Shown here: piece after piece, positions 45,971 to 64,000 of the stretch
Numbering within the stretch: position 1 is the first letter of the stretch
How the letters are laid out: every line of letters starts with the position of its first letter
NCBI RefSeq assembly: GCF_947487575.1
Contig: NZ_CANKXG010000005.1
Coordinates: 124,001 to 188,000, forward strand
Source: an uncultured Algibacter sp.
GTDB lineage: Bacteria > Bacteroidota > Bacteroidia > Flavobacteriales > Flavobacteriaceae
DNA: 64,000 nucleotides
Direction: 5' to 3'
Translations under genes and position numbers: made by a program
Notes under the pieces: model-generated
Told to the model about the DNA's origin: nothing
Database searches by the model: none
What the model saw: only the letters and a program-made list of their open reading frames with translations

Positions 45971-48900
45971 ATGACTAAAACTACTTATGTAAGCAAAGGA
46001 CTTGTTTTGTTACTCCTTTTATTGAGTTTGCCATTATTTGCACAAAATTATGTTCCTTTTACGCCTAGATTTAATCAAGATTTAAAAGGAGATATTCAAT
46101 TAATAGGAAATAATATATTAGGTCCTGATAACAATGCATTTAATGATGGTACGGTGTACAATCATAATGTGGAAATGGTATATATTGATATTGATGGTGA
46201 TGCTACTACATTTAATTCTTCAAGTGCAGATTTAACAATTCCAAATCCAGGATGTTATAGAATAATACATGCGGGATTATATTGGGGAGCGGTAACAGAA
46301 GGAGCAGAACCTTTTACTAATGTTAAATTTAGAGGTCCTACGGGTGGATATAATGATATTGTGGGAACCGTTATTTTTGACGCTGCAGGAACATCGGTTG
46401 ATGGTGGCGATAGTTTTCCTTATGCCTGTTATGCAGATGTAACTTCAATTGTTACAAGCTTAGCTTCAGATTTAGGAACGTATACTGTAGCAAATGTTTC
46501 GTCTTTACAAGGGGAAACAGCTAATTTTACACCTTATAATGGTACTGGTAATTCTGCAGGTTGGTCACTTTATATTGTATATGAAGACCCTACATTACCC
46601 GGTAAATCAATAACTAGTTTTGATGGTTTTAGTGCCATTAGTGTTCCAGGAGGAAACACGGCCTTAGATATCCCTGTTTCAGGATTTAGAACCATTCCTG
46701 CTCCTGCACCTGTAAGAGCAAATTTTGCATTTGCTACTTTAGAAGGTGATAGTCCAATTCTAGGTGATCAATTATTGCTTAATGGTTTAAATTTATCAAC
46801 TGCAGATAGACCAGCAACTAACTTTTTTAATAGTTCGGTAACACAATTGAGCGCTTTACCTGTAACTAATAGAAACCCAAATAGTACTAATACTTTAGGT
46901 TTTGATACTGGAGTGATTGTCGTGCCAAATCCAGCAAATTCTGTTATAGCAAATGATGCGACTTCAGCTACTGTTCGTTTAGAAACAAGTGGAGATACTT
47001 ATTTTCCATATTTTTTCTCTTTAGCTGTAGATATTATTGAGCCTAATATTGTATTAACTAAAATTGTAGAGGATGCTGCTGGAAATGATATTGGAGGTAT
47101 GCTTGTAAACCTTGGAGACGAACTAAATTATGTATTAGGGTTTCAAAATACAGGAAATGATGATGCAACAAATCTTATAATTAGGGATATTCTTCCAACT
47201 AATATTGTATTTAATTACCCAGCGGATGTTGGATTGTTACCAGCAGGAGTAACAGTACAAAGCTACAATCCAACAACAAGAGAACTTGTTTTTAGTGTTG
47301 ATAATTCTGTGGTTGAAGAAAATGACCCTGTTCAAGAAATTCGTTTTAAGGTTACCGTAGTTTCAACATGTAGTTTGTTGACTGATGCTTGTTCTAATAT
47401 AATCAGTAATCAGGCATTTTCAACATATAACGGGACATTGAATCCTACATTTACAATTTCAGATGACCCAAGTTTTAATACTAATACAGGTTGTTTATTA
47501 ACTCCTGGAGCGACTAATTTTTTAGCGGATATAGACTGTGTTTTTGAAGAAGAAGTTATTCTTTGTGGAGCAAGTACGGTGTTGACATCAGGCAGTGGAT
47601 ATGACTCTTATTCATGGTCTACAAGCCCTACAGGAACACCAGTAATAGGAACAACGCAATCAATAACAGTTACGTCAACAGGGACATATTATGTGGAAAA
47701 TACGGCCATTGCACCTTGTCAATCAACAAGTCAAGTTTTTGAAGTAATTACTTTTGGAGCAGGTGTAACTAATCCAGTAATTCCGTTTGCCGATCAGGTT
47801 GTTATTTGCCCTAATGATGGTAAAGAACTACCAAATATATTTTTATGTGGAGGTAATGGTCCAAGACTTATTGAAACTAATATTACGGATACGACATCTA
47901 TTATTTGGGAACAGTTAGATGAAACGAGTTGTACAGCTGTTACTAACTTAGACTGTGCAAATGAAGATGCTGCTTGTACTTGGAATGAAGTAACAACAGG
48001 TCCTAATTTTATGGCAGATACTGCTGGGCAATTCAGACTAACTTTAAACTACGATGGAGGATGTTTCAACCAGTTTTATTTTAATGTTTATACAAACTTA
48101 TTAGTACCTACAGTAACATCAAGAGATATTTATTGTACCACGCCAGGTGAAATTGTTATTGGCAGTGTTCCTAGTGGATACGAGTTTAGTATTGATGGTG
48201 TAAACTATCAAAACAGCAATGTGTTTTCGGTAAATACAGCTGGTATTTATTCTGTATATATTAAACAAATAGGAGTAGACCCTAATCCATGTATATTCAC
48301 AGTACCAGATGTACAAATACGACAAACAGATTTTACAGTTTCAACTATAGTTACTCAACCACTTTGTTATGGAGATTTAGGAAGTGTTTCGATAGCTGCT
48401 AATGATGTACGTCCACAATATTACTTTTCAATCTCACAAGGAGGAACTTTAGTAAATAATGTAGGGCCAATAAATCCAAATAGTTATACATTCTCAAACT
48501 TAAATCCTGGAACATATACCATTGATGTTTCTACCGAAGATGGTTGTGTACACTCTGAAGATATTGATATTGTAGAACCTGATTTATTAGAAGCAACTTC
48601 AGCATTAACAACACCATTAACATGTACTGATGGTGAAATTACTATTTATCCAACAGGAGGAACACCTCCATATTTTTATTTTGTAAACGGTGCAACAGCT
48701 TTTCAAACCATACCAACTATACCAGTTTCAAGCCCAGGTATATTTAATATTGTAGTTGTTGATTCCAATAATTGTTCTGCGGAAACATCTATTACTGTTG
48801 ATGCTATTCCTGCTCCAGAATTCACTGTTAATGCAACTGATATTGCATGTTCTGATACTGGAGATGTAGGTGTTATAACTTTTAATGTTACAAACCCAAA

Positions 48901-51900
48901 TGGAAATACTTTAGAATACAGTATTGATAACGGTTCTACATTCTCAAATTCAAATGTTTTTACTGGTTTAGCAAATGGGACTTATGATGTTGTGGTTCAG
49001 TATAGTTCTGGGCCAAGTGTGTGTATCACAGCCCCACAATCCGTTAGTATAATAACTTTAGCAAGCGTTACGGGTACAGCTACATTAACAACACCGTATA
49101 GTTGTATTTCGGATGGGATTATTACAGTTTCAGGAGTTACAGGAGGAACAGCTCCTTATACATATAGTCTTGATGGTGTAAATTTCCAATCTGGAACAAC
49201 ATTTACAGGATTGACAGAAGGAGCGTATACCGTAACTATAAGAGATTCTAGTGGATGTGCATTTATAGCAGCTCCAATTATAATAGATGCGCTTAATCCA
49301 CCAACAGATATGGATTTTAGCAGTACAACATTAAGTTGTCCTGCAATTACTTCAGATGTTACTATTACTGGAACAACTGGAGGAGCTGCACCTTTAGAAT
49401 ATCAAATTATAGCACCAAGCGGGGCAGCAACAGTATATCAAGCATCAAATATTTTTATTGGATTAAGTCCAGACACTTATACATTCCAAGTTAGAGATGC
49501 TAATGGTTGTGTTTATAGTGAAACATATACAATTGCACCATTACCTCCAATAACTGTAAATACAGTAATTACGAAAGATTTAGATTGTACAGCATCATCA
49601 GATGGTATTATAACTGGAACAATTTTAGGAGGAATAGCACCATTTACATATGCTGTTTCATTTAATGGAAGCGCCTATAGTGGTTCTAATGCTGTTGCAG
49701 GAACATCATTTACACATACCGCAACTACAGATGGAACTTATCAATTTCAAATAACTGATGCTAATGGTTGTATTGCAGAATCTGCATTACAAACTATTAA
49801 TGCTCCAGTTTTAGTAACGGCTTCCGAAGTATTAACTAATCCTACTTGTAATGGTTATAGCGATGGTTCTATTACATTAACAGCCTTAACAGGTCAAGCA
49901 CCATTTACTTATAGTCTTGATGGAGGAACAACTTTTGTATCGTCAAATGTATTTGGTGGTTTAATTGCTGGAAATTACAACTATGTTATAAGAGATAGCA
50001 GAAGTTGTGAGGTAGCAGGAACAGTTAGTTTAGCTAATCCTTTACCAATAGATGTTACAATTAATAGAAACCCTGTACAATGTATTGCAAATGCCAACGC
50101 ACCAGGAAGCTTAGATATAACTGTTGATTCTGGCGGTGTTGCTCCTTTTGTTTATTCTTTATATGATAATACATATACCCAAGTAGGAGCAAGTGTTACA
50201 ACAGTATCAACAACGCATACTTTTTCAGGTTTATCTTTTGGCGATTATTATGTTACCATTGTTGATTCTAATGGATGTGAATATAGAAGTGATGCACAAA
50301 GAATAGAGACTCCACCAAGTATTAGCCTAGTTAGTAACGTAACTACGGGCTCATGTGCCACAGGTGCTACAGTAGATATTTCAGTTGTTTCTGGTGCAGG
50401 GCCATTTACATATTCTATATTTGGACAACCAGCAACAATTTTTGGACCTACAGTATCAACAACTCACACCTTTACTGGATTAAACCATGGTGTTACATAT
50501 CAATTTCAAGTTATCGATTCTGGAGGTTGTTTTTCAATTATAGAAGTTACTACACCTATTTTATCTGCAATAGATATTGATGCCGTTACAACAACAGATG
50601 TTAGTTGCAATGGTGATAATGATGGCACGGTTAACTTTACCGTATTAAATTATGATGCTTCGGTAACTTCAATATATTATGAAGTTCAAGATGAATTAAC
50701 AAACACACCTATTATTCCGGCGCAAAATGGCACATTTACTGGGTTAACTGGAGCTTCTGTTAGTGGAAGTATTTCAGGATTACCAGCAGGTAATTATACA
50801 CTATTTGTTAGAGAAGCAGACGGTACGTTGTGTACAACATCAGAATTATTTGAAATTATTCAACCTATTCAACCGCTTGTATCAGCCGTTACTTCAGAAA
50901 TTAATGCAAATTGTAACGTCGGAGCACAGGTAACTATAACCGCAACAGGAGGTACAGGACCTTATCAATATGCATCAGGTGCACCTGGTTTTGTTCCAGT
51001 ATTAGCAGATTTTGGAACTAATAATGTTCTAAATTTAGATTATGCTATAAGAATGAATTGGGATATTGTTGTAAGAGATGTTAATGGTTGTGAAATTAGA
51101 ATTAATGAAACTATTGACTTAGACCCAGAACCTATAATTGATGCATTATTAAATAATCAATGTACAATTGCAGAAGGTGATTTTGAAATAGATGTTACAT
51201 TAACAACTGCTGGTATAGCACCATATACTTACAGTATTGATGGTGGCGCTTTTCAAACTAGAACAGCACCTTTTACGGTTTCAAATTTATCATCAGGAAC
51301 CCACACCATTGAGGTACAAGATGCTAATGGTTGTGGCAACTTAGTTTCGGTAGATATTGAAGCTCCATTAGAAATTGTACCAACACTAACAGCGTTATCA
51401 ACTTGTAATAATGACGATGGAGAAATAACTATTACTGGTTCAGGAGGTACAGGTACATACGCCTATACTATAACTCCAAATCCAGCATCAATTTCTTTAA
51501 CAGGAAATGTATTTTCTGGAGTGCCACCTGGAACTTACAGTGTTACAATAACAGATACTGTAACAACTTGTTTTGAAAATGTTACTGTTGTAATTCCAGA
51601 AGCAGTTCCGCCAACATTTACTACAACACCAACGGCTGTAACATGTTTTGGAGACAATAATGGTAGTTTTGAACTTAATGTAAATGACTATTCAGGAGCT
51701 TATACTTATGAAGTTTTTGATAGTTTATCAGTTTCAGTATTTGGAGTAGTAAATGCAAATACGTCTACAAATCCAGAATTAGTTACAGGGCTTTTAGCAG
51801 GAACGTATTCAGTAGTCATTACAGAAATAGCTAGTCCGTTTTGTTCATCAACATCTAGTGTAATTATTCCATCACCATCCGAAGCTCTTGATTTGACTGC

Positions 51901-54145
51901 TTTAGAAACATCTAACGTAACGTGTGATGATGATAAAGGAACAATAACAGCTACAGCAACAGGAGGTTGGGGAACTTATGAATATGAACTAACTGGAACA
52001 GCTACGGTAACTTATTCTTCAAACGGAACATTTACTAATTTATCAGCTGGTACATATACTGTTAATGTTAGAGATGCTGGTGGCTGTATAGATTCAGAAA
52101 CCATAACTCTTAATTTACCAACACCTATAGATGCCTCAATTTCGGCCATTCCTACTTTGCTATCATGCTTTGGAGATACCAATGCAAGTATTACAGTAAG
52201 TGCAGTAACTGGCGGTGAAGGCACTAATTATAGTTACACGCTTAATATGCTTACTCCAACTGTGAGTGCTTCTGGTCCGCAAACATCTCCAACTTTTGAT
52301 GATTTAGGAGCAGGAACCTATAATGTAGTTGTATCTGATGGATATAATTGTGAATTCACTACTGCTAATGTTGTTATTAATCAACCTACAGAAGTTGAAG
52401 CAAGTTTAGTAAAAGCAACATCTCAAACGTGTACAACGCAAACTACATTAACATTAAGTGCAACTGGAGGAACAGGAGCTTACGAATATAGTGATACAGC
52501 TTCTTTTACAACTATATTAGGAACGTTTGCTACATCAGCAACTTTTTCAGTAACTATTGGAAATTATGCATATTATGTTAGAGATGCTAATGGTTGTTCT
52601 TCAATAGTTTCAAACGAAATTACTAACGCCCCATTACCTACATTAACCGTTAGTTTAGATACTACTAATGCAGTAATAAATTGTGCTGGAGATGACAATG
52701 GTGTTATTATCGCTTCCGCGGAAGGGGGGCTTGGTAGTTATGTGTATACTTTACAGGATACATCAGGAAATCCTATAACACCAGTAACTCAAGACAGTCC
52801 TGGAGTATTTACAAATCTTCCAGTAGGAAATTATCAAGTACAAGTAGATAGTGGAGATTGCTTAGAAGTTTCTGCTGTTGCACCAATTATAAATGCCGCT
52901 TCTCCTTTAGATGTATCGTTCAATCCTATTGATGTAACCTGTAATGGAGAAAATGATGGGATGTTAGAAATTACCACCTCTGGAGGTTCTGGAACTATAA
53001 AATATGCGATTTCTCCACAATTAGATCAATTTTTTGATGTAGAAACTGTTGAAAATCTAGCACCTGGAATTTATGATATTGTAGTTCAAGATGAATTAGG
53101 TTGTTATGTAACGTATAATTTCGAAATAGAACAACCAGACCCATTAGGCTTTACTTATACTGTTATTAGTGAAGCACCTTGTGATGGTGATTCAATAGGA
53201 GAGTTTACTATAGAAATATTTGGAGGAGAGGCTCCATATAGTGTGAGTTTAGATGATGTAACATATACACCGCTTCCACTTGGTACAACAATCTATACAT
53301 TTTCTGGATTAGAAGGTGGCGAAAAAATGGTTTACGTTCTAGATAGTGGTAACTGTGGAGGTGATAGTCCGTTTTCTGTTCCATTACAAGACCCAGTAAT
53401 TCTTGAGCCATTAGCTAATGTTGATTATGAGTGTATTAATGATTTAACAAATAATACAAATACAGTTACTAATAGAGTTACAGTAACTATTGATTCAAGT
53501 ATAGTAGATACATCCGTTTTAGAATACTCACTTGACGGAGGCACTTTTGCAACTGGCACTGGCATATATGAAAATTTAACACCAGGACCGCATAGTATTG
53601 CAGTACGTCATCCAAATGGTTGTGTTCAAATTACGGATAATGGGATTCCTTTCGAAATAGATACATTTCAAATTTTAGCTTTAGCAATCGATGATGGCGG
53701 GTTAAACGAAATTGTTGCTGTTGCAACTGGTGGAGCGGAACCATACGAATTTAGATTAAATGGACAGTCTTATGGTGATGAAAATACCTTCTTGATTTTT
53801 GAATCAGGAGATTATACAGTTACAGTTATTGATGCTAATGGTTGCGAAGTTTCTGCAACACGATTTTTTGAATATGTAGATGTTTGTATACCAAACTATT
53901 TCACACCTAATGGTGATGGTAATTTGGATGGGTGGGGCCCAGGTTGTGCCAATCAATATAAAAACTTAACCTTCGATATTTTTGATAGATATGGACGAAA
54001 AATAGCAACCTTAAGAATAGGGGATAAATGGGATGGAAAGTATAAAGGTATAGAATTGCCTTCTGGAGATTATTGGTATGTTGTAAAATTGAATGAATCG
54101 CGAGACGATCGCGAATTTGTAGGACACTTTACATTATATAGGTAG
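45971..54145 (+). CDS. Giant SprB-like adhesin with type B T9SS sorting domain
   Basis: A 2724-residue exported surface protein. A signal peptide ends PLFAQN. The N-terminal 350 residues are a beta-rich domain (CYRIIHAGLYWGAV, YNGTGNSAGWSLYIVYED), followed by a DUF11-like repeat (VLTKIVEDAAGNDIGGMLVNL). About residues 560-2630 consist of some twenty or more SprB-type repeats, each with a pattern like GGTAPYTYSLDG and ending in R/TDANGC. The last 85 residues are the gliding-motility-associated C-terminal (type B) domain: CIPNYFTPNGDGNLDGWG, FDIFDRYGRKIA, WDGKYKGIELPSGDYWYVV. It is secreted by T9SS and attached via the PorP/SprF protein encoded next. SprB-like proteins are moved along the surface in gliding. 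Confidence 0.95.
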   Translation: MTKTTYVSKGLVLLLLLLSLPLFAQNYVPFTPRFNQDLKGDIQLIGNNILGPDNNAFNDGTVYNHNVEMVYIDIDGDATTFNSSSADLTIPNPGCYRIIHAGLYWGAVTEGAEPFTNVKFRGPTGGYNDIVGTVIFDAAGTSVDGGDSFPYACYADVTSIVTSLASDLGTYTVANVSSLQGETANFTPYNGTGNSAGWSLYIVYEDPTLPGKSITSFDGFSAISVPGGNTALDIPVSGFRTIPAPAPVRANFAFATLEGDSPILGDQLLLNGLNLSTADRPATNFFNSSVTQLSALPVTNRNPNSTNTLGFDTGVIVVPNPANSVIANDATSATVRLETSGDTYFPYFFSLAVDIIEPNIVLTKIVEDAAGNDIGGMLVNLGDELNYVLGFQNTGNDDATNLIIRDILPTNIVFNYPADVGLLPAGVTVQSYNPTTRELVFSVDNSVVEENDPVQEIRFKVTVVSTCSLLTDACSNIISNQAFSTYNGTLNPTFTISDDPSFNTNTGCLLTPGATNFLADIDCVFEEEVILCGASTVLTSGSGYDSYSWSTSPTGTPVIGTTQSITVTSTGTYYVENTAIAPCQSTSQVFEVITFGAGVTNPVIPFADQVVICPNDGKELPNIFLCGGNGPRLIETNITDTTSIIWEQLDETSCTAVTNLDCANEDAACTWNEVTTGPNFMADTAGQFRLTLNYDGGCFNQFYFNVYTNLLVPTVTSRDIYCTTPGEIVIGSVPSGYEFSIDGVNYQNSNVFSVNTAGIYSVYIKQIGVDPNPCIFTVPDVQIRQTDFTVSTIVTQPLCYGDLGSVSIAANDVRPQYYFSISQGGTLVNNVGPINPNSYTFSNLNPGTYTIDVSTEDGCVHSEDIDIVEPDLLEATSALTTPLTCTDGEITIYPTGGTPPYFYFVNGATAFQTIPTIPVSSPGIFNIVVVDSNNCSAETSITVDAIPAPEFTVNATDIACSDTGDVGVITFNVTNPNGNTLEYSIDNGSTFSNSNVFTGLANGTYDVVVQYSSGPSVCITAPQSVSIITLASVTGTATLTTPYSCISDGIITVSGVTGGTAPYTYSLDGVNFQSGTTFTGLTEGAYTVTIRDSSGCAFIAAPIIIDALNPPTDMDFSSTTLSCPAITSDVTITGTTGGAAPLEYQIIAPSGAATVYQASNIFIGLSPDTYTFQVRDANGCVYSETYTIAPLPPITVNTVITKDLDCTASSDGIITGTILGGIAPFTYAVSFNGSAYSGSNAVAGTSFTHTATTDGTYQFQITDANGCIAESALQTINAPVLVTASEVLTNPTCNGYSDGSITLTALTGQAPFTYSLDGGTTFVSSNVFGGLIAGNYNYVIRDSRSCEVAGTVSLANPLPIDVTINRNPVQCIANANAPGSLDITVDSGGVAPFVYSLYDNTYTQVGASVTTVSTTHTFSGLSFGDYYVTIVDSNGCEYRSDAQRIETPPSISLVSNVTTGSCATGATVDISVVSGAGPFTYSIFGQPATIFGPTVSTTHTFTGLNHGVTYQFQVIDSGGCFSIIEVTTPILSAIDIDAVTTTDVSCNGDNDGTVNFTVLNYDASVTSIYYEVQDELTNTPIIPAQNGTFTGLTGASVSGSISGLPAGNYTLFVREADGTLCTTSELFEIIQPIQPLVSAVTSEINANCNVGAQVTITATGGTGPYQYASGAPGFVPVLADFGTNNVLNLDYAIRMNWDIVVRDVNGCEIRINETIDLDPEPIIDALLNNQCTIAEGDFEIDVTLTTAGIAPYTYSIDGGAFQTRTAPFTVSNLSSGTHTIEVQDANGCGNLVSVDIEAPLEIVPTLTALSTCNNDDGEITITGSGGTGTYAYTITPNPASISLTGNVFSGVPPGTYSVTITDTVTTCFENVTVVIPEAVPPTFTTTPTAVTCFGDNNGSFELNVNDYSGAYTYEVFDSLSVSVFGVVNANTSTNPELVTGLLAGTYSVVITEIASPFCSSTSSVIIPSPSEALDLTALETSNVTCDDDKGTITATATGGWGTYEYELTGTATVTYSSNGTFTNLSAGTYTVNVRDAGGCIDSETITLNLPTPIDASISAIPTLLSCFGDTNASITVSAVTGGEGTNYSYTLNMLTPTVSASGPQTSPTFDDLGAGTYNVVVSDGYNCEFTTANVVINQPTEVEASLVKATSQTCTTQTTLTLSATGGTGAYEYSDTASFTTILGTFATSATFSVTIGNYAYYVRDANGCSSIVSNEITNAPLPTLTVSLDTTNAVINCAGDDNGVIIASAEGGLGSYVYTLQDTSGNPITPVTQDSPGVFTNLPVGNYQVQVDSGDCLEVSAVAPIINAASPLDVSFNPIDVTCNGENDGMLEITTSGGSGTIKYAISPQLDQFFDVETVENLAPGIYDIVVQDELGCYVTYNFEIEQPDPLGFTYTVISEAPCDGDSIGEFTIEIFGGEAPYSVSLDDVTYTPLPLGTTIYTFSGLEGGEKMVYVLDSGNCGGDSPFSVPLQDPVILEPLANVDYECINDLTNNTNTVTNRVTVTIDSSIVDTSVLEYSLDGGTFATGTGIYENLTPGPHSIAVRHPNGCVQITDNGIPFEIDTFQILALAIDDGGLNEIVAVATGGAEPYEFRLNGQSYGDENTFLIFESGDYTVTVIDANGCEVSATRFFEYVDVCIPNYFTPNGDGNLDGWGPGCANQYKNLTFDIFDRYGRKIATLRIGDKWDGKYKGIELPSGDYWYVVKLNESRDDREFVGHFTLYR

Positions 54146-54167
54146 TTAGCCCCAAAACTAAAAAATT

Positions 54168-55151
54168 ATGCAATTAAAAAAATTATATATTGGTTTACTT
54201 CTCATGGTTATCTCAAATGGTTATAGCCAAGAGTTGAATTTGCCAGTATTTACACAATATTTAGCAGATAACGATTTTGTTGTTTCTCCTACTTACGCAG
54301 GTATTGGTGATAATTTAAAAATTAGAGCAAACGGATTAACACAATGGGTTGGTATAAAAAATGCGCCAGATAACGTATCTATATATGGTGATGTTAGAAT
54401 TGCAGACCGCTCTGGAGTTGGTTTGTCTTTTTATAAAGATAAAAATGGAAATACATTACAATCGGGTGGTAAAGTATCTTTTGCACACCACCTTGTTTTA
54501 GATTATTATTCAAAATTGTATTTGTCTTTTGGCGTTTCTTTTAATTGGAATAATTTCAGAATTGATATAGAGAATTTTAATACCACTCAAGAAAATCCAA
54601 TTATAGACCCCTTTGTTACTGACGACAGAAGTACTACTAATTATAATTTTGATGTTGGTGCTTTGTTGAGGTATAAAGGTGCTTTTTTTAGTTTTAATGT
54701 AAACAATATTTTAGATAAAAAGCTGGATGAAACCATACGTGTATCAGAGCCTAATTTGCTTTTAAACTATCAAATTTATGCTGGTTATACTTTTAAAGGG
54801 CCTAAAAAGAGTGGCTTGGAGTTTGAGCCTTCTATATATTATCAAATGTTTACCAGTGACAAACGCTCTAGTACCGATATTAATTTTAAGTTTAGAAAAT
54901 ACAATAGAGATTACGACTATTTTTGGGCAGGTATTTCATACCGATTCTTAAATGATCAGTTACTCAAACCTTTAAATGTAGGGCCAATGGTAGGATTCCA
55001 AAAGTCTATATTTTACTTTGGTTATGCCTACCAAATAACAACTAATGAGTTATCTGCATTTAATTCTGGTACTCATGTAATTACTATTGGATTAAACTTT
55101 TTACAAGGGATTAGCAATTGTCCTTGTACCCAAAGTGCGGTTCGTAAATAG
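54168..55151 (+). CDS. PorP/SprF family T9SS outer-membrane protein
   Basis: A 327-residue outer-membrane barrel protein, signal peptide ending GYSQE. Family features are LPVFTQYLADNDFVVSPTYAGIGD, RSGVGLSFYKDKNGNTLQSGGKVSFAHHL and LLRYKGAFFSFNVNNILDKKL. SprF-type proteins are needed for secretion and anchoring of their cognate SprB-type adhesin, and this gene starts 22 bp after the giant adhesin, its evident partner. It ends in NCPCTQSAVRK, a cysteine-containing tail. Confidence 0.93.
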   Translation: MQLKKLYIGLLLMVISNGYSQELNLPVFTQYLADNDFVVSPTYAGIGDNLKIRANGLTQWVGIKNAPDNVSIYGDVRIADRSGVGLSFYKDKNGNTLQSGGKVSFAHHLVLDYYSKLYLSFGVSFNWNNFRIDIENFNTTQENPIIDPFVTDDRSTTNYNFDVGALLRYKGAFFSFNVNNILDKKLDETIRVSEPNLLLNYQIYAGYTFKGPKKSGLEFEPSIYYQMFTSDKRSSTDINFKFRKYNRDYDYFWAGISYRFLNDQLLKPLNVGPMVGFQKSIFYFGYAYQITTNELSAFNSGTHVITIGLNFLQGISNCPCTQSAVRK

Positions 55152-55161
55152 TTGAGGTAAT

Positions 55162-55890
55162 TTATAGCTTGTTAAAGTTAAAATACTTTATAGATTGGAT
55201 ATTACCCTTAATGGAAACAGCTCCTACATAATTTTCTATTTGGGAAAAGGAAAATAACTTCCAAAGGTCTTTTTCATTATCATCCCATTTTGTTTCTAAT
55301 AATTCTGCCTTGTCATCTGATTCTATACTTACTGAAAATGAATCTAATGGAAATGAAAGACCTTTCGCTTTAGCTTTAATAAACGATTCTTTTCGGGTCC
55401 AACATCTATAAAAACCTTTTGCGTGTAAATTTTTAGGTAGTTTTTTTAAGGCTTTAATTTCTATATTTGAAAAGTAGTTTTTAGCAATATCTAAAATTTC
55501 AAAATTGGTTTTTATATCTTCTATATCGACGCCAATGTCGTTATTTAATACAAACCCTATCACTGCCTTATTACCCGAATGAGAAACATTAAATTTTAGA
55601 TTAGTTTTCATCCTGTAATCTGGCTTTCCAAATTGTCCATATTTAAATATGATGTCTTTGGGATTTGTTTTTAGATATTTACCTGATAACAGGCGCAATG
55701 CTCCTCTAGTAATTATAGAACAGTTTTTGTCTTTTTCAAATCTAAATTTTGAAGCTTTAATAATTTCATCATCAGTTAAGAAACTCTTTAAGTAATTAAT
55801 CTCATTTTCAGAAATATCAAAACTAATACACCAAACATGAACTTGATTTACGGCTAATAAGAAATTGTTGTTTTTTGAAAAGTGCGGCAC
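55162..55890 (-). CDS. Sfp-type 4'-phosphopantetheinyl transferase
   Basis: A 242-residue enzyme that activates carrier domains by attaching 4'-phosphopantetheine from CoA. The Mg-binding motif GVDIEDI and the WTRKESFIKAKAKGL motif are typical of the Sfp/HetI group, as is FNVSHSGNKAVIGF. It starts at a GTG three bases after the TAG stop of the C-PCP-TE synthetase, so it is translationally linked to the NRPS operon and serves its two visible PCP domains. Confidence 0.95.
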   Translation of the reverse strand: MPHFSKNNNFLLAVNQVHVWCISFDISENEINYLKSFLTDDEIIKASKFRFEKDKNCSIITRGALRLLSGKYLKTNPKDIIFKYGQFGKPDYRMKTNLKFNVSHSGNKAVIGFVLNNDIGVDIEDIKTNFEILDIAKNYFSNIEIKALKKLPKNLHAKGFYRCWTRKESFIKAKAKGLSFPLDSFSVSIESDDKAELLETKWDDNEKDLWKLFSFSQIENYVGAVSIKGNIQSIKYFNFNKL

Positions 55891-58316: not shown

Positions 58317-60317
58317 TTAAAATTGACCCAAAAGGTTATCTAAATCGTCTTGATTAAGATTGGCTTCAGGAAAATCTGATGGCGTATATGAAACGTCATT
58401 TTGAGTTATACAATAATCAATAGTAGCTTTTAAATTTTGAATAAATTTGTCTGCTACTATTTTCGCTGTTTCTTCCTTGTAAAGGTCTTTGGTAAAACTC
58501 CAATTCACCAATAAATTATCATTTATAATTTGAGCGTTAATTTCTATAGCATAATTACGTTCGCTAAGAGGAGCTCTTGTTGGCGATTCTAAAAAATTAA
58601 AACTAAATGCTTTATTTTTACTTTCAGTATTTGATTTACCAAGATAGTTAAATACCACTTTGGGTTGCAATTGATTAAGTATTGAAGTATTTTCATCTGA
58701 AAGATACTTTAAAATTCCAAATCCTAATCCGTTATTAGGTATTGCTCTGAGTTTTTCTTTAATAAACTTAATATGATTCCCAATATCTGTAGAATTATTA
58801 TATCCAAGTAAAATAGGAAAAAAGGATGTAAACCAACCTACAGTACTTGAAACATCTAAACTTAGATTGTCAACATTTCTACCCTGCCTTTCCAAGCCCA
58901 GCAATACCTTTTCTAAACTACCCCATTCGCACAATGTTGAAATTATTGTAGCAATTAATAAGTCTTCAACTTTTGTGTTATATGGCTCGTTAGCTTTAAA
59001 TACTAGGTTATTGGTATACTCACTATCTAACTTTGAAGTGTGCGAAATAATTGAGTTTTCATAGAATGTTTTTGCATTTGAAACCAAATCTGTTGGAAAT
59101 TCTATATTATCACTAATTTGAGATGTCCAATAGTTGAGTTCATCTGATATAAGATTCTTATCAATACGTTTTTCTAAATAATCGGACCAATCTTTTATCG
59201 TTCCTGTTTTGTTATTTCCTGTATCTATAATGAAATTCTCAGATTTGTTTTTAATAATCTGTGCAATTTCGTTTGTTATAATATTCCAAGAAACTAAATC
59301 AACAATTAAGTGGTGCCCAATTAATATTATTTTGTTTGATTGTATATGATTACAATCAAAAAATATCATTTTAAATAAATTACCTTCTGATAGTTTTGCC
59401 CTTTCCTGTAGTTTTAATAAAATATCCTTTATTTTTTTGTCTTGTGCATCAATTGTATCCACATTATCTAAATTATAATGATAGAAGCTTTCAATGGCGT
59501 CTGAAGATTTAATTAATGCTTGCCAATTATTATTTTCTTGCTTAAAACTAAGTCTTAATGCTTCATGATTAGTAATTATTTGTTTTGAGATTGTTTCAAA
59601 TGTTTTACTATCAACATCACTTATGTTTTGCAATTCAACAACTTGATTCCAAAAATGAGGTGCATTTTTATGAGTTTCAAAGAACCAATGTTGAACGGGT
59701 GTTAAAGGTGTTTCTCCTTCAAGTACTTTATTGTTAGTATTATTTAAATTTGCATCAGCCAAAGTGCTTGCAAACAAAGCAAGTTCTCCAATGGTTTGAT
59801 TTTCGAATAGCTGATTTGCTTTTAAATGAACACCTTCTTTTCTTGCTTTTGCAACAATTTGAATACTTAAAATGGAGTCTCCTCCAATTTCGAAAAAATT
59901 ATCATTTGTACTAATTGGAGAGAAGCCTAAAACCTCTTCCCAAATTTGAACTAGTTTAGTTTCTATATCGTTTTTAGGATTAACAATACCATTTTTGTTT
60001 GCTTCAGAAAAAGACGCTTGGTCTTTAGTTTTTAGCAATCCTTTTTTATCAACCTTTCCATTAGGCAACAATGGTATGTCTTTCAAAACATTTATAGTTG
60101 AAGGAATCATATAATCTGGAAGTTTAGCCCTTAAATAGGTTTTTAAATCGTCCTTATCTAAATAAGAATCTCCCTTAACATAAGCTACAATCTTTTTTTG
60201 CGTAGTAGAGTTAGATATTTGAATATTAGTATGCAACTCTTTAACCTTAATAGCTAGTAGTTGCCTTTCATTATCAGAAAGTTGCTCAAGTTTATGTCTT
60301 AAATTGTCTTTTGTCAT
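58317..60317 (-). CDS. NRPS with adenylation C-terminal end, PCP and epimerization domain
   Basis: A 666-residue synthetase. Residues 1-30 are a helical leader. Residues about 40-95 are only the last subdomain of an adenylation domain, including KKIVAYVKGD and the A10 motif PNGKVDKKGL with the catalytic lysine (Lys88). The carrier domain has EIGGDSI (Ser148), the GGDS form typical before epimerization. Residues about 200-640 are an epimerization domain: HHLIVDLVSW (335-344), ERQGR (476-480, usually EGHGR), VGWFTSFFP (493-501) and VVFNYLG. The missing A core 1-8 is encoded two genes upstream. Its ATG overlaps the methyltransferase stop by 4 nt (ATGA). Confidence 0.93.
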   Translation of the reverse strand: MTKDNLRHKLEQLSDNERQLLAIKVKELHTNIQISNSTTQKKIVAYVKGDSYLDKDDLKTYLRAKLPDYMIPSTINVLKDIPLLPNGKVDKKGLLKTKDQASFSEANKNGIVNPKNDIETKLVQIWEEVLGFSPISTNDNFFEIGGDSILSIQIVAKARKEGVHLKANQLFENQTIGELALFASTLADANLNNTNNKVLEGETPLTPVQHWFFETHKNAPHFWNQVVELQNISDVDSKTFETISKQIITNHEALRLSFKQENNNWQALIKSSDAIESFYHYNLDNVDTIDAQDKKIKDILLKLQERAKLSEGNLFKMIFFDCNHIQSNKIILIGHHLIVDLVSWNIITNEIAQIIKNKSENFIIDTGNNKTGTIKDWSDYLEKRIDKNLISDELNYWTSQISDNIEFPTDLVSNAKTFYENSIISHTSKLDSEYTNNLVFKANEPYNTKVEDLLIATIISTLCEWGSLEKVLLGLERQGRNVDNLSLDVSSTVGWFTSFFPILLGYNNSTDIGNHIKFIKEKLRAIPNNGLGFGILKYLSDENTSILNQLQPKVVFNYLGKSNTESKNKAFSFNFLESPTRAPLSERNYAIEINAQIINDNLLVNWSFTKDLYKEETAKIVADKFIQNLKATIDYCITQNDVSYTPSDFPEANLNQDDLDNLLGQF

Positions 60318-61105
60318 TTTATTGCTTTAATTACAACAATAGAGTTTGCCCACCAAGTATCTAAAACGTCCTCAGGCATTTCTAGGTCAATTACTTTTAT
60401 ACTAAACGATGAGAAGTGTTTTAAAATTAAATGCTGGTGTTCTCTACTTAAAGAGTCAATTTCATTTGAAAAATAAGTAAATGATCCTCCTGGTTTTAAA
60501 TGTTTTGATGCGTGTTCAAAAAAGTGTTCAGCAAACGTAATACTGCCGTTAACATATTGCATATACTCATCATCGTTTAATGGGTAAGTATGAAATAATA
60601 TACCATCAAATAAATCAACAGATTCAATTGTGTTTTGCCATAAGCCATGAACCAGTTTTAAGTTTTTGTCTGAGTGCTTATTCTTAAAATCTTCGTAATA
60701 TGTTTTTATAACGTCATCATTACATTCAATTGCAGTATAAGATGCTATTGGGTATTGCATTATCATTTCAGCAGAAATACCGCGTCCAAAACCTATTTCT
60801 AAAATATCACCTCCATCTTCAGCAATAGTTTTTGCCATTTCTTTCATTAATGGAATTTGCCAATCTTCCATAATTTCTTGGTCGCCCATTACTTTTTGCT
60901 CTCTATCTACTTTTGATGCATGAACAGTAGCGCCAGGCACAAATTCTTTTGCTTGTTTATTTAAAATATTTAAATCACCAGCAAATTCTTTGAGTGCACG
61001 GTTTACAATGGCATTTCTCTGAGCATCTTTTGGTGGATTTATAAAATTTTCGTCATTTATTGTCACAACTACTTCAAATGCACTGGATCGTTTTATTTTC
61101 CTCAT
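60314..61105 (-). CDS. GAMT-like methyltransferase placed inside a split adenylation domain
   Basis: A 263-residue SAM-dependent methyltransferase, closest by pattern to guanidinoacetate N-methyltransferase: MEDWQIPLM, LEIGFGRG (SAM motif, 102-109), IECND (126-130), HGLW and GILFHTYPL. The first 70 residues are unlike GAMT. At the two positions where GAMT has guanidine-binding acids (MERWE and ILYDTYPL) this protein has Gln83 and His172, so its acceptor is probably different. It lies exactly between the gene for A1-A8 and the gene for A10, with an ATG 3 nt after the upstream stop and an ATGA overlap downstream. It probably methylates the amino acid on the carrier, or the free amino acid. Confidence 0.9.
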   Translation of the reverse strand: MRKIKRSSAFEVVVTINDENFINPPKDAQRNAIVNRALKEFAGDLNILNKQAKEFVPGATVHASKVDREQKVMGDQEIMEDWQIPLMKEMAKTIAEDGGDILEIGFGRGISAEMIMQYPIASYTAIECNDDVIKTYYEDFKNKHSDKNLKLVHGLWQNTIESVDLFDGILFHTYPLNDDEYMQYVNGSITFAEHFFEHASKHLKPGGSFTYFSNEIDSLSREHQHLILKHFSSFSIKVIDLEMPEDVLDTWWANSIVVIKAIK

Positions 61106-61108
61106 GGT

Positions 61109-64000
61109 TTATGCTTCTAGTTGGTTAAGAAGGTATTTCTTTTGATTGTTGTTTAACGTTTGAATAGAAGAGATAATAGAATCTACGTCTTGCCCTTCCA
61201 TTTTTCCTAAAATTTCTATTAAAGTTTCTAAATTATATATTTCCTTATCTGTATAAGAAATAAAGTTAGATGTATCAGTTTCAACAAGAACATAAGCATC
61301 AAGGATCTTTTCATTATAATTTTTAATAACTTTTTCTATTTCATTTAATTCTACTCTGTAACCTCTAATTTTTATTTGTTGATCCGCTCTTCCTAAAAAT
61401 TCAATAGTGTTATCGTGTCTTAGTTTTCCTAAATCACCAGTTTTATATATTTTTTTTGAGTTATTGAAAGGGTTGTTTATAAATGCATTTTTATTTAAGT
61501 CTGGCCTATTAATATACCCTTTGGTAAGCCCAACGCCACCTATGTAAATTTCTCCTACACTTCCAATAGGTACTAAGTTAAGTTTTTCATCTAATAAATA
61601 AATTTCTGCATTTGCAACAGGTTTACCTATAGGAACGTTAATGTTGTTACTATTTTCTTTAACAATTTTGTGTGCAATACACCATACACTTGCTTCCGTA
61701 GGACCGTATTCATTATATAAACTTGCATTTGGTAGTTTTTCAAAATGATTTTCACAAAGTGAATTGTTACATGCTTCACCAGCTACGATTACCGTTTTTA
61801 AACTATTCAGTTTTTTACAATCAATATATTGAAGCATTAACTTGTATAATGAAGGTAGCATTAGTGTATGACTAATAGACTGCTTTTTTACGAGATTGCC
61901 TATTTTTTCAATATCTTGTTCAATGCGTTTCTCTGCAATTACTAGATTTCCGCCAGTACAAAGTGTCCAGAAAATTCCAGCTTTCGAACTGTCAAATGAA
62001 ATAGAAGACATTAACAGAAAGGCTGTTGGTTTTTCATTATAGAAATCTAACCGCCCTCCAGTAGAGTTTATGATGTTTTTATGAGTAATTGGGACTCCTT
62101 TTGGTTGCCCTGTACTTCCAGAAGTGTAAATAATATAAGCTAGATTTGAGGGTTTTGATACTGAAACATTTGTAATATTAGAACCTGGTGTATAATCTAA
62201 ACTATCAATCTGTATTTGATTTAGAGCATTATCTAAAAATAAACTAGCCACATTTTGTTTGTTAACAATGGTTTTAACCTGTGCATCTTTAAGCATAAAA
62301 TCAATGCGCTCTTTAGGATAATCAGGGTCTATTGGTAAATAGGCACAACCCGTTTTTAAAATGGCTAACATGCCAATAATCATATCAACAGATCTATCAA
62401 TACACAAGCCAATAACTTCGTTGTCACTTTTAATATATTCTGCTAAATTATGTGCTACTACATTTGCTTTTTTATTTAGCTGTTTGTACGTTATTGTAGT
62501 ATCCTTATATGTTACAGCTATAGTTTCAGGATTAGATTTAGAAATATTTTCAATTATTTCATGTATGCCAGAGTATTCAGAAAAATGATTTTTAGTCTTT
62601 TCTTTTTGTCCTAATAGAAATTTTTTCTCATGGGAAGGAAGCATGGGTAACTCAACAATATTTTCGTTTGGATTAGCAACTATACCTTCTAAAAGTGTTT
62701 TGAAATAGCCTTGAAAACGTTCAACTGTAGATTCATGAAATAAATCGCTGGCATACTCAAATGTTGATGAAAGTATTCCATTTTCTTCAGCTACATAAAT
62801 CGTTAAATCAAATTTTGAGACTTTTAAATCAAACCATGTATGTGATAAATTTAGGTTTTCCCCAAAAGAGGGGTTTTCTGGAACTGAATGGTATAAGAAC
62901 ATCACTTGAAAAAATGGGTTTATCGCTAAAGAACGATCTACCTTTAATTCTCGAACCAAATAATCAAAATGAATATCTTTATTTTTAAAAGCTTCTAAGT
63001 GGTTTTTCTTAACATGATTTAGTAACTCTGTAAAAGACATATCATCATTGAGGACAGTTCTTAAAACCATAGTGTCATTAAAAAAGCCAATTAGCTTTTC
63101 AAGTTCTTTTGAGTCTCTATTGGTTACTGGTGTACCTATTAAAATATCCTTCTGTCCACTATATCTGTACAAGAAAATGTAATATACAGAAAGCATTAAG
63201 TTGAAGGGCGTAGTTTCTAATTGTGTTGCTAAATCTAAAATTTTAGTTGAAAATTCTTTACCAAAATTTTGTGTGCTAGATGCAGCGCCTTTAAAAGATG
63301 GTTGTAAGGGCTTTGTATAATCTGTTGGTAAATTTAAGTTTGGTATTTCTCCTGATAATTTTTGTTTCCAATAATCAAAATGTTCAGAGTTAATGGCTTT
63401 TTTATTTAACCAATATGCATAATCTGCATACTGCATTTTAGCTTTATTATCGGATAACTCAGATATCACTGCGTTTGATTGATAATAATTTGATAATTGT
63501 TCTCTAAAAACGCGCATAGACCACTTATCTGTAACAATATGGTGTAATGTTATTTGAAGAATGTGTTTTACAGGGTTTATCTTTATCAAAGAAGCTCTAA
63601 CTAATGGACTCCTCTCTAAATTAAAATATTTAAAGGCATCTGCTTCCATGACCTTTAAAGATTTTTTTTCAGAATCCATTTTATTTAAAGAACTTAAATC
63701 ATGTACAGCAATGTCCATTTTGGCATTGGCATCAACTTTTTGATAAATTTCACCATCTTCAATATGAAAGGTTGTTCTTAAAATATCATGGTCGTTATAA
63801 ACACTTTGTAAAGATTCTATTAGAAGGGTTTCTTTTAATTCGCCATCAAATGTATACGTTTCAGAGTAGTTATAAAACGGATTACTGGGATACATTTGTT
63901 GTAAAAACCAAAGTCGCTTTTGCCCATACGAAAGCGGTATTTTTATACCAGTTGCTACTTTGGTAATTATATTTGTAGAGGCACCTTCTTCTTTTTTTCG
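61109..64000 (-). CDS. NRPS with C domain and adenylation core 1-8 (5' end outside window)
   Basis: A partial gene; 963 residues are visible and the frame stays open to the window edge, with the C1 motif PLSYGQKRLWFLQQMYP at the very start, so an internal ATG at 63895 is not the true start. The condensation domain has HHIVTDKWS where HHxxxDG is usual (Asp kept, Gly replaced by Lys). The adenylation part has YIIYTSGSTGQPKG (A3), NEYGPTEASVW (A5), YKTGDLGKL (A7) and A8 GRADQQIKIRGYRVELNEIE, then ends in a helical tail with no A10 lysine. That lysine is in the gene at 58317. Specificity residues read D, S, A, M, I, A, E, V, W by hand alignment; I cannot assign a substrate. Confidence 0.93.
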   Translation of the reverse strand, partial: RKKEEGASTNIITKVATGIKIPLSYGQKRLWFLQQMYPSNPFYNYSETYTFDGELKETLLIESLQSVYNDHDILRTTFHIEDGEIYQKVDANAKMDIAVHDLSSLNKMDSEKKSLKVMEADAFKYFNLERSPLVRASLIKINPVKHILQITLHHIVTDKWSMRVFREQLSNYYQSNAVISELSDNKAKMQYADYAYWLNKKAINSEHFDYWKQKLSGEIPNLNLPTDYTKPLQPSFKGAASSTQNFGKEFSTKILDLATQLETTPFNLMLSVYYIFLYRYSGQKDILIGTPVTNRDSKELEKLIGFFNDTMVLRTVLNDDMSFTELLNHVKKNHLEAFKNKDIHFDYLVRELKVDRSLAINPFFQVMFLYHSVPENPSFGENLNLSHTWFDLKVSKFDLTIYVAEENGILSSTFEYASDLFHESTVERFQGYFKTLLEGIVANPNENIVELPMLPSHEKKFLLGQKEKTKNHFSEYSGIHEIIENISKSNPETIAVTYKDTTITYKQLNKKANVVAHNLAEYIKSDNEVIGLCIDRSVDMIIGMLAILKTGCAYLPIDPDYPKERIDFMLKDAQVKTIVNKQNVASLFLDNALNQIQIDSLDYTPGSNITNVSVSKPSNLAYIIYTSGSTGQPKGVPITHKNIINSTGGRLDFYNEKPTAFLLMSSISFDSSKAGIFWTLCTGGNLVIAEKRIEQDIEKIGNLVKKQSISHTLMLPSLYKLMLQYIDCKKLNSLKTVIVAGEACNNSLCENHFEKLPNASLYNEYGPTEASVWCIAHKIVKENSNNINVPIGKPVANAEIYLLDEKLNLVPIGSVGEIYIGGVGLTKGYINRPDLNKNAFINNPFNNSKKIYKTGDLGKLRHDNTIEFLGRADQQIKIRGYRVELNEIEKVIKNYNEKILDAYVLVETDTSNFISYTDKEIYNLETLIEILGKMEGQDVDSIISSIQTLNNNQKKYLLNQLEA

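Follow-up and report, generated by a model that had tools for sequence, protein, structure and literature searches.

A split adenylation domain with a GAMT-family methyltransferase gene at the break in an Algibacter nonribosomal peptide synthetase operon

An adenylation (A) domain that works in two pieces is already known from corallorazine biosynthesis. According to that report, Crz1 ends in A-nMT and Crz2 starts with the A subdomain (Asub); in the assay of Crz1.2 and Crz2, the first half alone was inactive, and when mixed with Crz2 it activated Gly (PMC11342130). A second related system is module 3 of the corramycin assembly line. The part of the corramycin paper available to us describes a His A domain, an N-methyltransferase (N-MT) domain, and an epimerisation (E) domain, for which gamma-N-methyl-D-His was proposed as the product, and its authors were aware of no earlier description of a nonribosomal peptide synthetase (NRPS) N-MT that modifies the side chain of an aromatic amino acid (PMC10099666). 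In a literature search whose coverage of subscription papers was partial, we found no report of an MT of the guanidinoacetate-N-methyltransferase (GAMT) type in an NRPS, or of a three-piece A domain.

The operon and the break in the A domain

The window, that is, the whole stretch of 64,000 nucleotides analysed here (C5:124001-188000 in a 3.5-Mb genome), contains an NRPS operon on the minus strand, with P1, P2, P3, P4, and a phosphopantetheinyl transferase in the order of transcription. All features of the operon given below lie on this strand. P1 (61109..64000) consists of a condensation (C) domain and an A core (Condensation and AMP-binding domains); it extends 51 nt beyond the end of the window and is 980 aa long in full (L009:1110-4052). 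Its A core (61319..62569) carries motifs A3 to A8, the latter being GRADQQIKIRGYRVE, and the His-type code DSALIAEVW. The protein ends 94 aa past the start of A8 with a helical tail of about 49 aa (61112..61258), and no A9 or A10 was found in it by motif and domain search. P2 (60314..61105) is a free-standing SAM methyltransferase of 263 aa with E80 and H172, assigned by sequence and model to the GAMT family. P3 (58317..60317, 666 aa) starts with the helix LRHKLEQLSDNERQLLAIKV (60228..60317), followed by the second half of Asub (60030..60200), recognised by the motifs A9 LPDYMIP and A10 NGKVD, by a PCP with its phosphopantetheine attachment site (59778..59957), and by an E domain (58371..59720, TIGR01720). 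The lysine of A10 is K88 of P3. The next step of the assembly line is P4 (55894..58296), a C-PCP-TE protein without an A domain, and the 4'-phosphopantetheinyl transferase (55162..55890) is the last gene.

The junctions reported in the initial annotation, a 3-nt gap and a 4-nt ATGA overlap, were read directly in the DNA. At the P1-P2 junction (...gaagcaTAAaccATGagg...) the two genes are separated by TAA-ACC and P2 is in the frame of P1 behind a single stop, while at the P2-P3 junction (aaATGAca) P3 is in a different frame. The shared frame of P1 and P2 in the window raised the possibility of stop read-through or a frameshift between them, which was given up in view of the differing gaps and frames of the relatives.

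When aligned with intact A domains, P1 and P3 tile them, and the break falls between A8 and A9. On GrsA (1AMU) they cover 18-452 and then 465-555, and on the intact homologue L096 they cover 52-924 and then 918-1465. On the interrupted A domain of TioS (5WMM) they align to 65-472 and 886-922, the second match being weak (E 0.061), and the roughly 413 TioS residues left uncovered between the two matches are where the TioS MT lies. Like an interrupted A domain, the locus has its MT between A8 and A9/A10, as P1 ends past A8 and P3 begins before A9, but the single polypeptide of such domains is absent: there are three ORFs, with P3 in another frame. The corallorazine-type arrangement is present: the A core is encoded apart from A9/A10, which a second gene joins to the carrier; here an MT gene lies between these two genes. 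The initial annotation had placed A3 to A8 on the first gene, the A10 lysine on the third, and the MT gene at the insertion site after A8, and all of this held. The A10 or C-terminal subdomain sought on the first protein was absent, no single frame is being broken, gaps and frames differing between relatives, and the three genes were contiguous in 44/58 scanned loci rather than dispersed in unrelated clusters. Judged from the sequence, the split itself is nearly certain, and by the precedent of Crz it is likely to work in trans. The novelty claimed for it was narrowed. The three-piece form stands, but the splitting itself does not, since a two-piece split A domain appears in the accessible text on corallorazine (PMC11342130), and a form not known in nature is therefore limited to three pieces.

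Several other genes surround the operon. A HupE/UreJ-type membrane protein is encoded immediately upstream of P1 (L009:4096-5298, minus), and such a protein precedes P1 in 31/59 loci (the window counted, and with several contigs too short to reveal one). A PhyH-family dioxygenase gene (L009:5351-6139, minus), a candidate histidine hydroxylase, adjoins the module here and likewise in L023, L033, L036, and L045. An acyl-CoA dehydrogenase and a stand-alone A ligase are found at L009:6411-9145 (plus). The PDB matches of the ligase include the prolyl-carrier ligase 6o6e (7.6e-71), and a relative of the dehydrogenase occurs in 24/59 loci (the window's own copy being outside the stretch used); these two proteins may supply the A-less PCP of P4 by loading proline and oxidising it. 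A TonB-dependent receptor is encoded nearby (L009:13120-15396, plus), and the product of the cluster might be a metal-binding peptide. On the other side of the operon, window positions 45971-55151 (plus) encode a very long repeat protein of 2724 aa and then a protein of 327 aa, which we take to be PorP/SprF-like; by eye, genes like this pair also flank the NRPS operon in L085.

The methyltransferase and the specificity code

By sequence and predicted structure, P2 is a member of the GAMT family, a relative of guanidinoacetate-N-methyltransferase. Its sequence matched GAMT in the PDB at 2.7e-20 (phmmer), and its profile did so at 1.3e-30; the four distinct sequences matched by the profile at E<=0.001 were all GAMT, and 5WMM was not matched. 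The predicted model of P2 (pLDDT 92.8) had GAMT 3orh as its best fold match (E 7e-15), and homology to the family is thus present in both sequence and fold. About 65 residues, with a long helix at 27-52, precede the GAMT-like part. The MT is well conserved, with a mean column identity of 76% among 11 MTs. Pfam gave only weak generic MT matches below the cut-off, and a canonical NRPS N-MT was rejected for P2 on these matches and on the PDB profile, which finds GAMT only. P2 is accordingly taken not to be the usual N-MT of known interrupted A domains. A PADLOC match of P2 to mad2 (7.4e-9, residues 88-242) was set aside as generic resemblance of the SAM fold.

GAMT methylates a guanidino nitrogen. 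We take its Glu and Asp to be the acidic pair that binds the guanidino group, so that positions 80 and 172 of P2 would lie in the substrate site. This pair is incomplete in P2: Glu80 is kept, and the Asp in GILYDTYPL of GAMT is replaced by His172. Each of the two residues was found in 40/41 MTs of alignment A2, and the sole exception for both is L073 (Q and D).

The positions of the A code were mapped by motif, following GrsA numbering. The code in P1 together with K88 of P3 reads DSALIAEVWK, and so the trait of a His-activating A domain is present; DSALIAEVWK is named among the His codes in the passage of the source that we consulted (PMC12283262). Among the 60 loci, 52 of the 55 codes that were read fit DS[AVT]L[IMVLS]AEVW, one of them partial, and the three deviating codes are those of L061, L071, and L073. 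A further A domain, intact and with a code of the His type, is present in the cluster of each of the first two. The code of L073 is DVELVGGVT and that of L102, a locus from a later draw, is DVEAIGAIT, and the MTs of both have Q80 and D172. The pair E80/H172 versus Q80/D172 thus tracks the A code, with two non-His cases only, and the position occupied by Asp in GAMT carries His in 39/39 A2 rows with a His-type code at their locus or in their cluster (the code of L050 being partial). Because the two residues track the code, the side chain of the residue is suggested as what P2 binds, from a small sample with these two exceptions. The His-type code in 52/55 loci and the covariation of MT residues 80 and 172 with it are, as read from sequence, new here. 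The pocket of P1 likely selects His, and by analogy with GAMT and corramycin our best guess for the site of methylation is the imidazole ring. The DVE codes of L073 and L102 may, as a guess, stand for arginine. The L102/L103 locus, with its GAMT-type MT (Q80/D172) and non-His code, might represent a further branch of the family with a second substrate.

Recurrence, variants, and terminal helices

A search for P2 in 397 genomes of Flavobacteriaceae gave 13 genomes with a match, its own genome counted (12 full or near-full, one remnant). Each of the 13 has an A-core gene of its own that stops ahead of the MT, and a separate gene with the helix and Asub follows the MT. In addition, contigs of 84,980 species' genomes were scanned with the peptide patterns GDILE[IL]GF or [FL]FHTYPLN and then by tblastn with the MT alignment, which yielded 58 loci; members with FDTYP are under-sampled because the scan required one of these patterns. 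Together with the window and L022, 60 loci were classified. The three pieces were contiguous in 46 of them (44/58 scanned loci, the window, and L022), four of the 46 with a damaged MT. In L062 and L069 the A core is fused to the MT and Asub is on its own gene. L072 has a fused A-MT at a contig end, and L067 has P1-MT at a contig end. P1 of L065 lies 4.5 kb from P2-P3 with opposite-strand genes in between. L070 is degenerate: its A core is fused to the MT, A8 was not found, no Asub follows, and the contig has unread stretches. L051, L061, L071, and L073 have an MT without an adjacent split A domain, and L077-L080 are distant MTs that no split A domain adjoins. The rows of these eight loci and of L067, L070, and L072 were dropped. 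No MT-Asub fusion was seen among the 60 loci, and no single-chain A-MT-A with a GAMT-type MT was seen among the 58, of which L067 and L072 are cut off by the ends of their contigs.

Further draws of 345, 398, 195, 216, 201, and 199 genomes also contained no single-chain A-MT-A. Apart from repeats (the genomes on which the draws were centred, and L082 and L081, whose coordinates are those of L064 and L071, respectively), they gave one additional MT, L102, which came from the Acidobacteriota draw after the contig scan and has its A core fused to the MT and Asub on the next gene. The MT is rare beyond the family. At E<=1e-40 it was found in 3/345 genomes of the phylum and in 1/398, 1/195, 1/216, 1/201, and 2/199 genomes of other phyla, where each draw includes the centre genome; the A2 search at this threshold in the 195 genomes of the phylum of G726 had G726 itself as its sole match. 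The three-piece rows of the MT tree nevertheless come from seven phyla (Bacteroidota, Rhodothermota, Pseudomonadota, Chloroflexota, Acidobacteriota, Planctomycetota, and Verrucomicrobiota), and the fused A-MT rows come from Planctomycetota, Hydrogenedentota, and Nitrospirota. Since the same three-gene layout occurs in several phyla, it is a real design and not a sequencing error, and a split A domain can be a fixed trait of different phyla and not an accident.

The junctions differ among the loci. The MT is out of frame with P1 in 32/47 P1-MT gaps, a count that leaves out L073 because its A domain is complete (the regex had labelled it 'A8noA10'). The offset between MT and P3 is -4 in 20/49 loci and -1 in 13/49, with the start positions of P3 picked by script; that of L046 was mis-set in the classification, and P3 of L055 was picked up through a chance A10-like match, its A9/A10 being seen separately. 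P3 has an E domain in 36/49 loci and PCP-TE without E in 11/49, and some P3s are truncated at contig ends. The methylated residue would therefore be either handed on in the D form or directly released. Pairwise distances across 39 loci, uncorrected for species kinship, correlated at 0.84 for P1-MT, 0.83 for P1-P3, and 0.77 for MT-P3.

Several variants depart from this layout. An in-frame loss of about residues 53-228 has removed the SAM-binding core of the MT in G246, leaving an open frame of 87 aa between P1 and P3 (L085:8638-8901) that joins the N-terminal 52 or so residues to the C-terminal 35 or so. As P1, the remnant, P3, and P4 all remain open, the split A domain was seemingly kept without methylation there, and the remnant might have a structural role. 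Damaged MTs were found in four relatives, L022, L029, L048, and L068. The clusters of L071 and L061 contain a whole A domain (L096 and L097, respectively) with the MT elsewhere in the cluster, and this A domain is the intact His-type one, so neither the split nor the embedding is required for such a pathway. These variants (G246, L096, L097) weaken the claim that the MT is an obligate part of a fixed complex. Moreover, the MT of L071 falls within Flavobacteriaceae (99/93 with Winogradskyella) and its A domain (L096) does not group with those rows in the A tree; this disagreement indicates that parts have been exchanged. In the MT tree the clade of fused A-MT (L062, L069, L072) comes first, with support of only 80/81 for the remainder, but the A tree is without that order and has one of its four outgroup rows, the second A domain of L097, inside the group; no order of events is claimed from these trees. 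A predicted single-chain model of a natural A-MT fusion had pTM 0.65, and its linker (514-548) had pLDDT <50.

P1 ends, and P3 begins, with a helix of a common pattern, about LLxSVExLSxxExxxLLxQL. When 50 P1 tails were aligned with the P3 heads by hhalign, 22 columns matched with a probability of 81% and a score of 21.56. As controls, 100 column-shuffled heads scored 6.2 on average and 11.9 at most, and reversed heads scored 5.7. Three segments of the MT reached 8.2-9.2 when aligned with the tails and 6.8-14.6 when aligned with the heads, and thus helices generally score above shuffles. With single sequences the similarity was weak: the head model found just six P1 tails (E 0.06-0.9), and the tail model found the P3 head in L063 only (E 1.3), besides chance places. 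The likeness of the two helices proposed in the initial annotation is therefore seen at the profile level, and it favours a docking role. In L065 the head model weakly matched both sides of an ordinary subunit junction, P1 at its N-terminus (E 0.013) and the preceding protein at its C-terminus (E 1.4).

Proposed mechanism and comparison with known systems

We consider it probable that P1, P2, and P3 form a module assembled in trans, in which His is loaded and its imidazole is methylated in a corramycin-like manner. The three proteins would jointly make up a single C-A[MT]-PCP-E module, with the A domain divided between the two halves of Asub. P1 would give the binding pocket, which would select L-histidine, and the hinge, and P3 would give the A10 lysine and the carrier, so that adenylation and loading would need both proteins. 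The two halves are probably held to each other by the helical tail of P1 and the head helix of P3. P2, encoded at the break, would methylate the histidine on the carrier, an imidazole nitrogen being the most likely site, and the E domain would convert the methylated residue to the D form before it passes to P4 (C-PCP-TE). A stronger version, which we offer tentatively, is an obligate three-protein unit in which the helices and the embedded GAMT-family subunit hold the A domain together and side-chain methylation is tuned to the A code, His172 serving for imidazole and Asp172 for another, perhaps guanidino, side chain. If true, this would be an undescribed class of NRPS methyltransferase and a natural multi-subunit A domain.

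It is also quite conceivable, though we would not call it probable, that the A domain reassembles from P1 and P3 alone, and that P2 is an MT acting in trans whose gene landed in the break without forming a fixed complex. The free-standing MT beside an intact His-type A domain in the L061 and L071 clusters, the retention of P1 and P3 with the 87-aa remnant in G246, and the distant P1 of L065 all fit this explanation. It has to account, however, for the MT gene lying in the break in 44/58 loci from seven phyla and for the fusion of the MT to the A core in L062, L069, L072, and L102, which indicates physical closeness. Much less credit is given to a decayed or misassembled module, in which one gene was broken by a stop and a frameshift. 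The shared frame of P1 and P2 across TAA-ACC in the window and the four damaged MTs are what such decay would leave, but the same three pieces recur in 44/58 loci of different assemblies with differing gaps and frames, and 11 MTs keep a mean column identity of 76%. We regard this explanation as very improbable.

As for the chemistry, MTs of classical interrupted A domains often methylate the alpha nitrogen, and P2 could likewise carry out backbone N-methylation; its insertion site is that of TioS (by the weak second match). We find this unlikely, since by profile its only PDB relative is GAMT, which methylates a guanidino nitrogen, and since two residues of the GAMT substrate site track the A code, as expected if the side chain is bound. 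Furthermore, the module of corramycin, for which an equivalent set of domains is described, is proposed to give ring-N-methyl-His (PMC10099666). It is similarly doubtful that the substrate is something other than histidine, the code being common for another reason and the MT acting on a different substrate. The reading of the code leans on one printed passage in the part of the source consulted (PMC12283262), which leaves room for this, but the code is nearly invariant across phyla and the GAMT Asp position is His in all 39 A2 rows with a His-type code (L050 partial).

If a trans-assembled, imidazole-methylating module is what these genes encode, the family, in which the MT is mostly a small separate protein, offers dozens of candidates for aromatic side-chain N-methylation in NRPSs, some of them in named isolates. 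Natural break points of A domains with matching helices are, moreover, what NRPS engineers have sought.

Among known proteins, GAMT (3orh, 1xcj, 1khh) is the closest to P2 in PDB sequence and fold, but P2 differs from it in about 65 extra N-terminal residues with a long helix, in His172 in place of Asp, and in its association with an NRPS. TioS (5WMM) has its break at the same A8-A9 place of Asub (the second match being weak), whereas it is a single chain, and the MT profile of P2 does not match it. Module 3 of corramycin resembles the locus in its His-type A, MT, and E domains, as likened by the domain description in the available text, but there they belong, by that description, to an assembly line of 12 modules (PMC10099666). 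A close arrangement is that of Crz1/Crz2, in which the A domain is likewise split at A8-A9, Asub opens the next gene with a T domain, and an MT lies at the break. As far as the accessible description allows the comparison, corallorazine has two pieces, an nMT fused to the A core that is a type I conventionally embedded N-MT, and Gly as substrate, whereas the locus described here has three proteins, a GAMT-family MT, and a His-type code (PMC11342130).
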